The translations under genes were made by a program, and so were the position numbers. Of a DNA stretch of 50,255 bases, positions 572-6,406 are shown in pieces. The DNA is from Verrucomicrobium sp. BvORR034. GTDB lineage: Bacteria > Verrucomicrobiota > Verrucomicrobiia > Verrucomicrobiales > Verrucomicrobiaceae. A model generated the notes under the pieces. The model was not told the origin of the DNA. It did not search any database and worked only from the letters and a program-made list of their open reading frames with translations. The stretch covers positions 1-50,255 of the forward strand of contig NZ_BATQ01000144.1 of NCBI RefSeq assembly GCF_000739635.1, in the 5' to 3' direction. The stretch's first letter is position 1; each line of letters begins with the position of its first letter.

Positions 572-1651
572 ATGAATGCCGCGTGCCGCCTTACTGTTCT
601 GGTGATGATGGCCGGGAGCTTCCATCTCCACGGCATCGCTGCGGAACCCGCGCCCCATCCTGGTCCATCGCCTGCATCTCCCAGAGCCATTACCGCGCGC
701 AGCCTGCCTTTCCTGAAGGAGAAAGGCCAAGATTGGATCGATGACCGCGGTTGCGTCAGTTGTCACCAGGTACCGTCGATGCTCTGGGGGCTGCATCGGG
801 CAGCGCAGTCAGGGCTACAGGTGGATCAGAAGCATCTGGAAGAAACCTCAAAGTGGGCGGTAGACTGGAAGAACTGGAACCAGTCCGGCGACAAAGAAGG
901 CCTGCAGAAAGTTGCCGCCGCCAACACCGCCACGATGGCGTTTCTATTGCTCGCCCTTCCATCCGAGCTTCCCGCAGCGGCTGACTCCTCGACTGGCTCG
1001 CAGCATTGGGCGGACTCGTTTCGCGCTCTCCTCTTGGAACATCAGCAAAAGGACGGCTCGTGGAAGGCTGGTGGCCAGCTTCCTCTCAGCAAGCGCCCCG
1101 CCCGGGAGAATGATGAAGTGTCCACCATGTGGGCGTTGCTCGCTCTGGAGCCCCTCCCCGTACCAGGAACCGCCAAGCCCTCGACCAATCCAACGCTGAC
1201 CTCCGCCCAGAAACGGGCAGACACTTTCCTCGCCACTGCCGCCTCTGGGCAGAGCATCGAATGGTATGCGACCCGCCTCCTCCTTCACCCTGAGGACGAA
1301 TCCAGACGGGACGCTCTGCTCAAGCTCCAGCATCCCGACGGCAGTTGGGGCTGGCTCGTTGCGGAACCTGGCGACGCCTATGGCACGGGTCTGGCCCTCT
1401 ATGCTCTCGCGAAATCACAGAGTTCCAACCAATCCGATCCCGCCGCTTCAGAGGCGGCACAACGGGCGATCCGCTATCTGAACGATACGCAGCGGCCCGA
1501 TGGCAGTTGGCTCGTACCCAGCACCCGCGGCCGTGACAAAAACAAGCCCATTCCCACCTCCACCTACTGGGGCACCGCTTGGGCGGTCGTCGGCCTGCTG
1601 GAGTGGGCCGCGGGCTCCCAAGCAGCAGCCGCAACCGTTTCCCACGACTGA
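572..1651 (+). CDS. Secreted CxxCH protein with squalene-cyclase/prenyltransferase-like repeats
   Basis: This 359-residue protein starts with a probable signal peptide ending near residue 24. A c-type heme attachment motif follows at residues 61-65 (C-V-S-C-H). The rest is alpha/alpha-barrel-like, with repeated QW-type motifs: QKDGSW near 150, QHPDGSWGW near 255 and QRPDGSW near 310. These are typical of the squalene-hopene cyclase and prenyltransferase repeat fold. The DXDD catalytic motif of true hopene cyclases is not seen and the protein is about half their length, so cyclase activity is unlikely. A periplasmic heme protein using the repeat fold as a scaffold is an inference. A TonB receptor follows 132 bp downstream on the same strand. 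Confidence 0.7.
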   Translation: MNAACRLTVLVMMAGSFHLHGIAAEPAPHPGPSPASPRAITARSLPFLKEKGQDWIDDRGCVSCHQVPSMLWGLHRAAQSGLQVDQKHLEETSKWAVDWKNWNQSGDKEGLQKVAAANTATMAFLLLALPSELPAAADSSTGSQHWADSFRALLLEHQQKDGSWKAGGQLPLSKRPARENDEVSTMWALLALEPLPVPGTAKPSTNPTLTSAQKRADTFLATAASGQSIEWYATRLLLHPEDESRRDALLKLQHPDGSWGWLVAEPGDAYGTGLALYALAKSQSSNQSDPAASEAAQRAIRYLNDTQRPDGSWLVPSTRGRDKNKPIPTSTYWGTAWAVVGLLEWAAGSQAAAATVSHD

Positions 1652-1783
1652 GGAGAGCCCCTTCCTGGCCAAACTTCGGCCTATGGATGCGAGGCAGGGA
1701 ATAAAACTCGCCCACTATTTGCGATTGCTTCTCAGAATCAATTGCACTATGAACCCGGCCGAAATTCAACCATTCGACTCTCA

Positions 1784-3976
1784 ATGAAACTCAAAGCTCG
1801 TGCGATCCCCGCACTCTTGCTCGGCGCGCTCACTCCCGGCGCAGTCGTGGCTCAAGTCACCACCTTGGACACCGTCACGGTGACCGCAGCTTCGGAAGGC
1901 AATGGCTACGTTGCCCCCGCAGTCATCACCAGTGGCCTCAAAACTGAGGTGCCGCTGCTTGAGACCCCCCAGGCCATCTCTATCGTCACCAAAGATCTGA
2001 TTGTGGATCAGGGTGCCAGAAATCTGGAAGATGTGATCAAGAACGTCGCCGGCGTGACCCCAGGCGGCTACTACTCCGAGTGGGACTACTACCGCATCCG
2101 CGGCTTTGACGCGGCCTTCACCACGTATCAAGACGGTCTGCGCGGCGACTACGATGGCACCGGTGCCGAGACGTTCGGTCTGGAGCGTGTGGAGGTGATC
2201 AAAGGCCCAGCCTCAGCACTCTACGGCCAGGCTCCTCTGGGTGGCATCGTGAACCTCGTGAGCAAGAAGCCCAAGCGCGAGTTCGGCGGTGAAGTGGGCT
2301 TCACCGGTGGCATGTGGGACTTCTACCAGGGCACGCTGGATGTGAACATCCCCCTGCTCACGCCCGCGCCAGTGATGGCACCGGTTTCAGGAAAGGACGC
2401 CAAGAACGTCGCCCCGGTGGCTCCCGTCTCCAGCGATGGCCTGGGCATCTATCTCCGCCTCAATGCCCTCTACAAGGAGAGCGGCTCGTTCGTTGACTAC
2501 TATGACTACGATCGTCTTTTCATCGCCCCCTCCCTCACCTTCGAGTGGGGCCAGGATACCAGCCTCACCTTCCTCACCCACTACATGAAGGACGACGGCA
2601 TCTTTGCCATGCCGCTGCCGGCCCGTGGCACCGTGCTGCCGAACCCCAACGGAGAAATCCCGGTGAACCGCTTCATCGGCATTCCCGGCAAGTCGGGCAA
2701 GATTGACATCGAGACGCTGCGCCTGGGCTATGAGTTTAAGCATCGCTTCAACGACACCGCCACCGTGCGCCAGAACCTGAGCTACTACCGCGTGGACCAG
2801 AACTGGGACAACATCCTTTACAACTCCGTCCTCAGCGATGACCTCCGCACGCTCTATGCAAACCCGTATGACTACAACAGCGGGGTGCACCAGCGCATCA
2901 TGGTGGACACAGCGGTGGACTTCAGCTTTGAGACCGGCTCCATCAAACACTCTCTCACCATCGGTACCGACTACTTCCATTCGGAGCAGGACACCACTTA
3001 CCACGAGATCAACTACGATGATTTCCCCGGCTCGTACGTGGCCATCGATCTCTTCCGCCCCAACTACAACCAGCGCATCCCCCAGCCGAAAATCAAAGGT
3101 TCCTTCACCTCCAGTGAGGACAACTTCGGCGTCTATATCCAGGATCACGCGAAGCTCACTGACAAGCTGACGCTCACCGTCGGTGGACGCTATGAGTGGC
3201 TCTGGCTGGATGACTCCGGGTCCTATGGCAGCGTGCCTGCGGATGTGAAGGACGACGCCTTCACCCCCAAGGCCGGCATCACCTATGAACTCATCCCCGG
3301 ACTTGCCGCGTATGCCAACTACAGCCGCGCCTTCAAACCCCAGTGGGGCTCCCGTGACGACAGCGATCTTCCCGTGGCCCCCGAAGAGGGTGAAAACTGG
3401 GAAGGCGGCTTGAAGTATGACCTTCTGGACGGCCGCTTGAGCGGGCTGATCTCCGTGTTCCACCTTACCCGTGAGAACGTGGCCACCAGCAACCTCGCCA
3501 CGGCCAATCCGTTTGATGCCACTGTCAGCGGGGAGCAGCGCAGCCGCGGCTTCGAGTTCGAGACCGCCGCCGAGCTCCTGCCCGGCCTCAAGTTGACGGC
3601 TGCCTACACCTACCTTGACGCCGAGGTCACCGAAGACAACGACATCCCAGTCGGCACCCCGCTCCTCGGCGTACCGGATCACACCGTCAGCGCCTGGCTG
3701 AAGTACACCGTGCAGGACGGCCCGCTCAAGGGCTTCGGCGTGGGTCTGGGAGGCCGCTACTACAGCAGCCAGTCCGGCGACACTTACAACACCTTCAATC
3801 TTCCCAGCTACGGCCTGGTGGATGCCGCCCTCTACTACGAGCGCGACAGCTACCGCGTGCAGGTGAACTTCAACAACGTGTTCGACAAGCGCCACTTTGT
3901 TGGCTCCTATGACGAACTCTACATCCTCCCCGGCGAGCCCTTCAACGTCTCCGCCAGCGTGACCTGGAAGTTCTAG
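1784..3976 (+). CDS. TonB-dependent siderophore receptor
   Basis: This 730-residue outer-membrane receptor probably imports ferric siderophores using energy from TonB. I chose ATG 1784 because it gives a clean signal peptide (MKLKARAIPALLLGA, cleavage near AQ). An in-frame TTG at 1742 would add 14 uncharacteristic residues. The TonB-box-like segment TLDTVTVTA follows the signal. The plug domain spans about residues 60-170, with ETPQAISIVTKDLI, the YRIRGF motif and the ERVEVIKGPASALYG signature. The remainder is a beta barrel ending in Trp-Lys-Phe, the usual C-terminal aromatic. Length matches the family. A strong hairpin terminator follows. No Fur box or siderophore gene is evident nearby. 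Confidence 0.93.
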   Translation: MKLKARAIPALLLGALTPGAVVAQVTTLDTVTVTAASEGNGYVAPAVITSGLKTEVPLLETPQAISIVTKDLIVDQGARNLEDVIKNVAGVTPGGYYSEWDYYRIRGFDAAFTTYQDGLRGDYDGTGAETFGLERVEVIKGPASALYGQAPLGGIVNLVSKKPKREFGGEVGFTGGMWDFYQGTLDVNIPLLTPAPVMAPVSGKDAKNVAPVAPVSSDGLGIYLRLNALYKESGSFVDYYDYDRLFIAPSLTFEWGQDTSLTFLTHYMKDDGIFAMPLPARGTVLPNPNGEIPVNRFIGIPGKSGKIDIETLRLGYEFKHRFNDTATVRQNLSYYRVDQNWDNILYNSVLSDDLRTLYANPYDYNSGVHQRIMVDTAVDFSFETGSIKHSLTIGTDYFHSEQDTTYHEINYDDFPGSYVAIDLFRPNYNQRIPQPKIKGSFTSSEDNFGVYIQDHAKLTDKLTLTVGGRYEWLWLDDSGSYGSVPADVKDDAFTPKAGITYELIPGLAAYANYSRAFKPQWGSRDDSDLPVAPEEGENWEGGLKYDLLDGRLSGLISVFHLTRENVATSNLATANPFDATVSGEQRSRGFEFETAAELLPGLKLTAAYTYLDAEVTEDNDIPVGTPLLGVPDHTVSAWLKYTVQDGPLKGFGVGLGGRYYSSQSGDTYNTFNLPSYGLVDAALYYERDSYRVQVNFNNVFDKRHFVGSYDELYILPGEPFNVSASVTWKF

Positions 3977-3996
3977 GAAAACAGTCCATCCTCCTC

Positions 3997-4032
3997 AAGC
4001 CCGGGACCGGCCACGCCGTCCTGGGCTTTTTT
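3997..4032 (+). terminator. Rho-independent terminator of the TonB receptor
   Basis: An 11-bp stem (AAGCCCGGGAC with GTCCTGGGCTT, one G-T pair) encloses a 10-nt loop and is followed by a run of T residues. It lies 21 bp after the receptor stop codon. Confidence 0.85.
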
Positions 4033-4085
4033 GTGGGAACGCATCTGCCCACTCCACCACTCCGCTTTCCGCATTCGCGATCCCC

Positions 4086-4356
4086 GAACCCGGAGGGTTC
4101 ACCATGAATAGCCTGGGGTCGACCGAGCATAGCGAGGGCTACCCCAGGACGCCCGCCTGCCGCTCTACCGCGCAGCGGTAGGCCCATCGCATCGCCCGCC
4201 CCAGACGATCATCCCACAACTCACGCCGCACGTCATTTGGATCCGCTGGCCTACCGCTCCGCGGTAGAATCCACCCCAGGACATACCATGGGTAGTCCTC
4301 TCCCGCCTTGCGGGATCGGCCGACCCATGGCTACGCATGGCGAACCCTCCGGGTTC
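4086..4356. repeat. Intergenic inverted repeat, AACCCGGAGGGTTC type
   Basis: The arms are 4086-4113 and 4329-4356, 28 nt each, differing at 3 positions when one is reverse-complemented. Each arm contains the small palindrome AACCCGGAGGGTT. The enclosed 215 bp hold further short complementary stretches around CTACCGC...GCGGTAG and CTACCCC. The spacer 4033-4466 holds no credible gene. Confidence 0.75.
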
Positions 4357-4374
4357 ATGAGATAACTCGCAATT

Positions 4375-4458
4375 TGACGCACTGACGCACTGACGCACTG
4401 ACGCACTGACGCACTGACGCACCGTTCAACCGATTTACTGAATTACTGAATTACTGAG
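4375..4458. repeat. Two adjacent 8-bp tandem arrays
   Basis: Six perfect copies of TGACGCAC fill 4375-4422. Twelve bases later three copies of an 8-bp unit, TTACTGAA (the last ending in G), fill 4435-4458, stopping 8 bp before the response-regulator stop codon. The same TGACGCAC word recurs in both orientations around 35.93-36.13 kb. Confidence 0.85.
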
Positions 4459-5222: not shown

Positions 5223-6406
5223 AGGCACCTCCCATGCGGAATTTCAATCACGGCGATGGAGCCTCCCTCTTCGCAGGGCAGCACCGTGACTCTCTTGTCG
5301 AGCCCCTCCAGATCACCATACGCCGCCCGCAGCCGGGCGCGGGTGTTCTCCAGGCCAATGCCATCGCGGAGCGGCTCCTTGATGCCTACTCCATCATCCC
5401 GCACCTCCAGACGCAGCATCTTCAGCTCGGGTTCGAGCCGCGCCTTGATGGCGATGGTCCCAACGCCTTTGCGAGGTCCCAGTCCATGCCGCACGGCATT
5501 CTCCACCACCGGCTGCAGGATCAACACCGGCACCATCCACATCTGACAGTCCGCCCCGATGTCCGTCGTGAGTTTCAATCCATCACCAAATCTCGCACGC
5601 TCGATCTTCAGATACATCTCCACGAGCTCGATCTCGTGCTCCAAGGTCACCTCACGGTTAAAGTCGCTTTCCAGCGTCTCGTGCAGCAGCACCCCCAGTG
5701 AGGTGACGATACGATCCACCACCTCCGGCTCACGATGCACCAGTGAGGCAATCGTGTTCAGCGTGTTGAACAGGAAATGCGGCCGCAGCTGTGCATAGAG
5801 CATTTCCAACTGGGAGCGGTGCAGCTCCGCAGTGGCTTGCAGCACACGACGCTCCCGTTCCCGCATCTTGACCCTGGCCACCGACATCACGGCAAACGCG
5901 GTGATCCCCAGATAGACAGGCATCCCCACCAATACTTGCGGGACAAACATCGGTGGTTTGGGCGGCGGATTTTCCCGCCAGGACGAGGGCGGCGGACGCC
6001 GTAGATCCCGCGCCTTGTCCCGCGCCTCATCCATGCCTGCTTCTGCCACCACCGCGTAGAATCCCACACACAGCACCATGCCCACCATCCAGGCGAGCAT
6101 GTCCATCGCCAGGTGATGGGGCGTCGTGCACCAGCGCTTCACCCCTCTGACGATGACCGGCGTCAAAAGCATCCACGGCATCCAGAGCATGGCCCCGAAG
6201 AGCAGCGCAAAGGTCCAGGACTGTGCGGCCGAAAACTTGAACTGCGTGGCGAACAGCACCGCCAGCATCGGCCAGAGTATCATATTTACCACCCTGGTCG
6301 TCCGCTCAAACCTGAGGTCATCGTCCAACACTTGAGCTCTTGGATTAGGGCGGCCGGGATCTCCACCAGACACCATCGCAACACTGGCAGAAGCATCAGG
6401 GTTCAT
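5219..6406 (-). CDS. LytS-type sensor histidine kinase
   Basis: A 395-residue membrane kinase. Hydrophobic segments at about 41-60, 64-86, 100-122 and 157-178 predict four membrane spans, with a Pro-rich loop between the third and fourth. The His_kinase domain starts near residue 195 and has the phospho-acceptor H210 in LRPHFLFNTLN. The HATPase region follows, with the N box (PVVENAVRHGLG), a DDGVGI motif and the GIGLENTRARL G box. There is no PAS or GAF sensor domain, so the ligand, if any, is sensed by the membrane part. It is the first gene of a two-gene unit and overlaps the LytTR regulator by 4 nt. Confidence 0.93.
   Translation of the reverse strand: MNPDASASVAMVSGGDPGRPNPRAQVLDDDLRFERTTRVVNMILWPMLAVLFATQFKFSAAQSWTFALLFGAMLWMPWMLLTPVIVRGVKRWCTTPHHLAMDMLAWMVGMVLCVGFYAVVAEAGMDEARDKARDLRRPPPSSWRENPPPKPPMFVPQVLVGMPVYLGITAFAVMSVARVKMRERERRVLQATAELHRSQLEMLYAQLRPHFLFNTLNTIASLVHREPEVVDRIVTSLGVLLHETLESDFNREVTLEHEIELVEMYLKIERARFGDGLKLTTDIGADCQMWMVPVLILQPVVENAVRHGLGPRKGVGTIAIKARLEPELKMLRLEVRDDGVGIKEPLRDGIGLENTRARLRAAYGDLEGLDKRVTVLPCEEGGSIAVIEIPHGRCL

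Follow-up and report, generated by a model that had tools for sequence, protein, structure and literature searches.

Described systems approach the protein analyzed here from two sides. Toroids of the alpha/alpha type generally have a face that opens on a cavity, and classical cytochromes that transfer electrons retain a His or Met as the sixth ligand. Among the literature that we searched, the nearest published idea is dnHEM1, a heme enzyme designed into a closed helical toroid in which, going by the accessible part of its report, heme was bound by titration and not via CxxCH (PMC10326885). Our literature searches, with most subscription journals outside their reach, recognized no description of a family of toroids that carry CxxCH. 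This family is apparently uncharacterized, and its members are probable heme proteins.

Here, we describe a member encoded in a window of 50,255 nucleotides (i.e., the whole stretch of Verrucomicrobium sp. BvORR034 DNA that was analyzed). We consider it somewhat probable that a widespread family uses the squalene-cyclase-type alpha/alpha toroid as a c-type heme-binding fold, monoheme and with an open ligand site at the toroid mouth, for redox chemistry on, or binding of, a small molecule.

A single-toroid protein with QW-type repeats and CxxCH

The gene and its features are as follows.

572-1651, plus strand: coding sequence (359 aa from ATG) of a single-toroid protein with CxxCH and QW-type repeats, probably exported
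572-643, plus strand: signal-peptide-like N-terminus (residues 1-24), read by eye
752-766, plus strand: CVSCH (residues 61-65), presumed heme c attachment site, placed by the model in the turn between helix 37-59 and helix 67-79
1043-1063, plus strand: QW-type repeat QQKDGSW (residues 158-164), followed by a GQLP..KRP loop
1328-1348, plus strand: QW-type repeat QHPDGSW (residues 253-259)
1490-1510, plus strand: QW-type repeat QRPDGSW (residues 307-313)

The first-pass annotation had read this ORF as a C61-x-x-C64-H65 motif combined with QW repeats lacking DXDD, and both readings hold: the motif is C61-V-S-C-H65 (codons 752-766), the repeats are three QxxDGSW motifs, and the D.DD pattern of the acid motif is absent from the whole 359-aa protein. 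The N-terminus shows a hydrophobic stretch followed by GIAA/E, which by eye has the appearance of a signal peptide, and the only cysteines of the protein are C5, within that N-terminus, C61, and C64.

SQHop_cyclase_C, matching residues 248-351 at 27.1 bits (cutoff, 26.1), is the sole Pfam family over its cutoff. The NCBIfam cyclase models all fall far under their cutoffs, with TIGR01507 reaching 29.1 bits against a cutoff of 431.1. The missing DXDD and the single domain deny the protein membership in the squalene cyclases; together with the score far below the NCBIfam cutoff, they led us to reject a true squalene cyclase. In addition, at E values up to 1, the whole protein matched no cytochrome family and its motif segment matched no Pfam family. 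Among the motif segments of nine members, one matched Cytochrom_C (E 0.16) and one matched CCP_MauG (E 0.21), both weakly. Membership in classical cytochrome c is denied by the missing family match and by the missing conserved distal ligand described below.

Conservation of the motif in three phyla

The conservation of CxxCH among homologs, which the first-pass annotation had put forward as a check, was assessed at several depths. In an alignment of the window protein with nine homologs from Verrucomicrobiaceae and relatives, Planctomycetaceae, and Pirellulaceae (37-77% identity), C61, C64, and H65 are invariant (10/10), with M70 and W72 among the further invariant residues. The same three residues are invariant in 26 of 26 wider sequences, at identities down to 23%, and the x-x residues vary (VS, AS, LS, NS, NG, FT, FS, IS, SQ, and VT). 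Shuffling of residues 26-359 produced CxxCH in 33 of 200,000 shuffles; this frequency and the conservation among homologs rule out a chance origin of the motif.

We also searched genomes with profile A3, which was built from residue 110 onwards, without the motif region, so that the motif plays no part in retrieval. At a threshold of 1e-15, A3 matched at least 2 of 268 genomes of the window's own phylum, Verrucomicrobiota, and at least 32 of 246 genomes of Planctomycetota, the phylum of locus L009; in Armatimonadota, the phylum of L012, profile matches were found in at least 17 of 121 genomes (threshold, 1e-12). These counts are lower bounds, given that only part of the candidates in each genome was scored (8 to 23 of them where the list was full). 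An in-frame CxxCH occurs 44-119 residues upstream of the A3 match, with no intervening stop, in 32 of the 34 Verrucomicrobiota and Planctomycetota loci, a count that leaves out matches listed without a locus. In the two exceptions (L117 and L149), the contig ends after only 14 and 36 codons of upstream sequence. Four of the 34 loci (L063, L125, L128, and L129) hold genes that went into A3, these genes being from the window, L008, L009, and L013, and 28 of 30 loci carry the upstream motif once they are set aside. As for Armatimonadota, CxxCH is present in all 8 loci examined, 13 further listed matches, several of them in very long frames, having been left out. The CxxCH-toroid family, which we regard as widespread, was thus found in Verrucomicrobiota, Planctomycetota, and Armatimonadota.

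Some match to the window protein occurs in 31 of 68 genomes of the window genome's own family; in several of these it covers the repeats only, and in one the signal peptide only. The ORF set used for the ligand alignment comprised 134 ORF matches (redundant across loci), 17 of which lack CxxCH. Fifteen of these are long ORFs of 565-730 aa in which 292-598 residues align with the profile, a span that two-toroid cyclases would be expected to give; the remaining two are occurrences of the same gene, truncated at the end of a contig. The window genome itself (G000) contains two longer ORFs (~600 aa; C185:90702-90911 and C145:70291-71283) whose repeats match the profile and which have no CxxCH; they are perhaps true cyclases.

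A maximum-likelihood tree built from 64 domains places the window protein in a group with seven sequences from Verrucomicrobiaceae and relatives (8 rows; support, 100/100). Planctomycete sequences stand next to this group, with the long row L074 making the deep forks unsure. One record titled Akkermansia muciniphila (L006) apparently encodes the same toroid protein as G334 (L030), a genome placed in the window's own family, and its title may be wrong.

Predicted fold and placement of the motif

The AF2 model of the window protein (mean pLDDT, 82.1; pTM, 0.82) consists of one toroid, made of six helical hairpins between about residues 31 and 354, and the model of the planctomycete homolog at L009 (pLDDT, 83.5; pTM, 0.84) agrees with it; each was built on 10 sequences and contains no heme. 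CxxCH forms the first hairpin turn in both models, lying between helices 37-59 and 67-79 in the window protein and between helices 32-56 and 65-77 in L009. The first-pass annotation had spoken of a heme motif joined to an alpha/alpha-barrel. The two do occur in one protein, but the motif is not a separate part, since both models place it inside the first helical hairpin.

Structural matches were taken from a Z-scored comparison instead of from Foldseek, whose rows had rmsd values above 6. The best PDB match is a cyclase for both the window model (8pak; Z 22.2, rmsd 3.4, 267 aligned) and the L009 model (Z 24.3, rmsd 3.6, 276 aligned). Among solved structures, squalene-hopene cyclases and further class II cyclases come closest, and the related PDB toroids include GH105, GH76, and epimerases. 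No cytochrome was seen among the 50 PDB structures listed per model, which does not in itself speak for their absence.

Helix order and charge, the odd helices being mostly more charged than the even ones, led us to assign the odd helices as outer and the even helices as inner. Residues invariant in the 10-sequence group occupy 29 of 85 positions in the odd-to-even loops versus 0 of 48 in the even-to-odd loops (Fisher p 3.6e-7), and the comparison without the CxxCH loop gives 25 of 78 versus 0 of 48 (p 1.3e-6); for this count, helix stretches 110-117 and 119-128 were joined by hand, and the last helix was cut at 347. Every invariant interhelix-loop residue thus lies on the motif's side, making the motif part of one highly conserved face. 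From the general build of alpha/alpha toroids, this face would open on the cavity, and the topology of the models suggests that a heme attached there would have access to it.

Candidate heme ligands, fusion proteins, and maturation genes

We analyzed potential iron ligands in 64 non-redundant domains, a row choice that sets C, C, and H to 100% by construction and leaves only the other columns informative. No His, Met, Lys, or Cys column besides the motif reaches 50%. The H66 column stands at 41%, with CxxCHH marking some subfamilies; position Y270 is a tyrosine in 55% of the domains; and the invariance of M70 is limited to the close group of 10. In L009, the motif His is the sole His from 25 residues before the motif onwards. 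As neither a further His nor a Met is conserved, a heme with six-coordinate His/His or His/Met ligation throughout the family appears unlikely from the alignment, and Y270 could be a ligand in part of the family.

These columns bear on the idea of a monoheme cytochrome for electron transfer, in which the toroid would be a mere scaffold and the heme would exchange electrons with partners, perhaps PSCyt-domain proteins. The family lacks the conserved sixth His or Met that such cytochromes keep, and one toroid face is strongly conserved, which suggests that it binds a ligand. On the other hand, the toroid is fused to the planctomycete cytochrome c domain PSCyt1 in L103 (1384-2880), and the protein of L053 (1-2487) unites ankyrin repeats, toroid, and PSCyt1, which speaks for electron transfer. 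A further point in its favor is the DUF1501 gene found near homologs in L005, L006, L010, and L029 (and, in a diverged form, in L095 and L096), DUF1501 presumably being one of two unknown families that adjoin PSCyt2/PSCyt3 genes. Against this, DUF1501 genes are abundant in such genomes. The adjoining of PSCyt2 and PSCyt3 genes to two families of unknown genes is described in the accessible part of a published report (PMC5615132). Taken as a whole, we regard electron transfer as an unlikely role.

Other fusions join the toroid to ankyrin repeats (L100 and L101), and in Armatimonadota (L159-L163), the CxxCH toroid occurs with ankyrin-like repeats in either order, as read by eye. A profile of the motif segment, compared with PDB sequences, found its best match in no more than 13 residues of a cytochrome c555 construct (E 1.6e-4). 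This match and the PSCyt1 fusions count against a protein without heme, in which CxxCH would provide a structural disulfide or a metal site and the toroid would bind polysaccharide or lipid. The absence of cysteines other than C61 and C64 after C5 would suit such a protein, as would the GH105, GH76, and epimerase structures among the related toroids. Yet a disulfide has no need of the His, which is as invariant as the cysteines, and the two residues between the cysteines are variable. We therefore consider a heme-free protein improbable.

The first-pass annotation had also pointed to cytochrome c maturation genes as a check on the genome, and ResB and CcsA-like genes are present; neither of the two conditions that it had named as refuting its reading has thus come about. 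ResB is over its cutoff (60.3 bits, scored together with neighbors in its frame), and the adjoining CcsA-like frame, which runs into a contig end, reaches 26.4 bits against a cutoff of 29.9. A CcsA piece at the start of contig C136 (61.5 bits, over the cutoff) may be the other end of this frame, and C40 carries another piece (52.5 bits). Judging from these genes, the window genome can probably make heme c. Cytochrom_C_asm was found in 40 of 41 family-positive genomes, the one without any being G472, and in 36 of 39 family-negative genomes; the positives were all 32 Planctomycetota found plus 9 of the 17 from Armatimonadota, the 8 with weaker matches being omitted, and the negatives came from the two listings. 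Being near-universal in the compared genomes, maturation genes permit heme c and do not support it.

Gene neighborhood

Two features lie directly downstream of the toroid gene.

1724-1742, plus strand: inverted repeat ATTGcTTCTcAGAAtCAAT (19 bp) between the toroid gene and the receptor gene, seen by eye
1742-3976, plus strand: neighboring ORF for a TonB-dependent siderophore receptor (TIGR01783), with a probable ATG at 1784

The receptor ORF scores 349.6 bits against TIGR01783 (cutoff, 223.5), which bears out the iron-uptake receptor that the first-pass annotation had placed next to the gene. A pattern search for ATTGcTTCTcAGAAtCAAT returned one occurrence in the window, with a chance figure of 0.06 that is not independent, the pattern having been drawn from the site itself. 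A dyad search did not report the window repeat and found a similar dyad in L002 at 6137-6161. The repeat is possibly an operator of the receptor gene.

On the upstream side, the minus strand at 1-363 holds a divergent gene, beginning ~210 bp from the toroid gene, whose product starts with a signal-peptide-like stretch and matches no Pfam family; its relatives, at 87-91% identity, are also found in L002 and G349.

The neighborhood is the setting for another explanation, namely a sensor, heme-based or ligand-responsive, whose target would be a neighboring regulator or iron uptake. It could draw on the adjoining siderophore receptor and on congener G349 (L120), in which window positions 642-4451, comprising both the toroid gene and the TonB receptor, have no counterpart and about 405 bp stand instead. 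What is left there of the toroid gene is about its first 25 residues, and the absence looks like a deletion; this joint loss is a single event and proves little. The pair is kept in congener L002. By tblastn, receptor relatives beside the toroid gene were found in L002 and L121 (a stretch of G347) only, and none was found at 1e-8 in the flanks, up to 5 kb, of L003-L010. Functional pairing with a TonB receptor as a family trait was rejected on this last result, and the restriction of the receptor linkage to the window genome and one congener leaves an iron-uptake sensor unsupported.

In three planctomycete loci (L007:977-2569, L008:3434-4849, and L091:20-1432), the gene directly upstream encodes a sigma-54 response regulator, which would also suit a sensor. 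Nevertheless, the neighbor linkages of the toroid gene are lineage-specific, the possible operator precedes the receptor gene itself, and a Pfam search of the 359-aa protein found no signaling domain. We accordingly give a sensor little credence. The suggestion of a sensor next to an iron-uptake receptor finds little support in a linkage that is genus-specific. As for the wider proposal of a binding or sensor protein, which is partly supported, the highly conserved face and the unconserved distal ligand are no less compatible with a heme that binds or converts a ligand than with a sensor.

Proposed mechanism and significance

Under the open-site heme reading that we favor, the protein would be exported, and the system II machinery (ResB/CcsA) would then attach one heme to C61 and C64, a step that we regard as likely. 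H65 would serve as the proximal iron ligand. Because the motif sits in the first hairpin turn, the heme would be held at the toroid mouth, on the face built by the other conserved loops. With no other His, Met, Lys, or Cys conserved family-wide, the second axial site would probably stay open or carry a weak ligand, and the iron could be reached by a small molecule from within the central cavity. The likeliest role would be periplasmic redox chemistry on, or binding of, this small molecule.

In this scheme, export, heme attachment, five-coordination, cavity access, and catalysis are what we infer, the open-site, substrate-facing heme being suggested by conservation and by model topology; our preference for catalysis over electron transfer or sensing is a guess. 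More specifically, and tentatively, these proteins may be natural c-type heme enzymes in which a terpene-cyclase-like toroid carries a covalent open-site heme at its mouth and oxidizes a hydrophobic (perhaps isoprenoid) or carbohydrate periplasmic ligand.

To family models, proteins of this kind look like squalene cyclases and nothing else, and a probable family of heme proteins is thereby hidden. If the heme is confirmed, the alpha/alpha toroid would become one more fold known to carry heme c, and its apparently open iron site would sit on a pocket, a geometry that was built on purpose in dnHEM1, according to the accessible part of its report (PMC10326885). Confirmation would also provide a handle on many uncharacterized cytochrome-domain proteins of Verrucomicrobiota, Planctomycetota, and Armatimonadota. 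If true, the proposal would supply a natural counterpart of designed toroid heme enzymes in a fold that is undescribed for heme c within the literature searched.

Relation to described proteins

With dnHEM1, as far as the accessible part of its report goes, the window protein would share the concept of a heme that is ligated by His and whose open site faces the pocket of a toroid; dnHEM1 is artificial, and the likeness is one of architecture only (PMC10326885). The thioester domains (TED) of complement/A2M, GH88/GH105, and GH76 belong to the same toroid fold class as the window protein, which scores below the cutoffs for TED (20.6 bits; cutoff, 22) and GH88 (19.3 bits; cutoff, 26.6). We know of no CxxCH feature in the complement/A2M thioester domains, GH88/GH105, or GH76.

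The c-type cytochromes, including PSCyt1 (PF07635), have in common with the window protein the CxxCH motif, a signal-peptide-like start, and maturation genes, and PSCyt1 is fused to two of its homologs. In contrast to them, the window protein has no cytochrome family match, and its modeled motif lies in a toroid hairpin and not in a cytochrome fold. Squalene-hopene cyclase and the class II terpene cyclases (PF13243, TIGR01507) are its best structural and sequence matches and resemble it in the alpha/alpha toroid and in the QW-type repeats. Unlike squalene-hopene cyclase, the window protein is one toroid of 359 aa, probably exported, which lacks DXDD and carries CxxCH.
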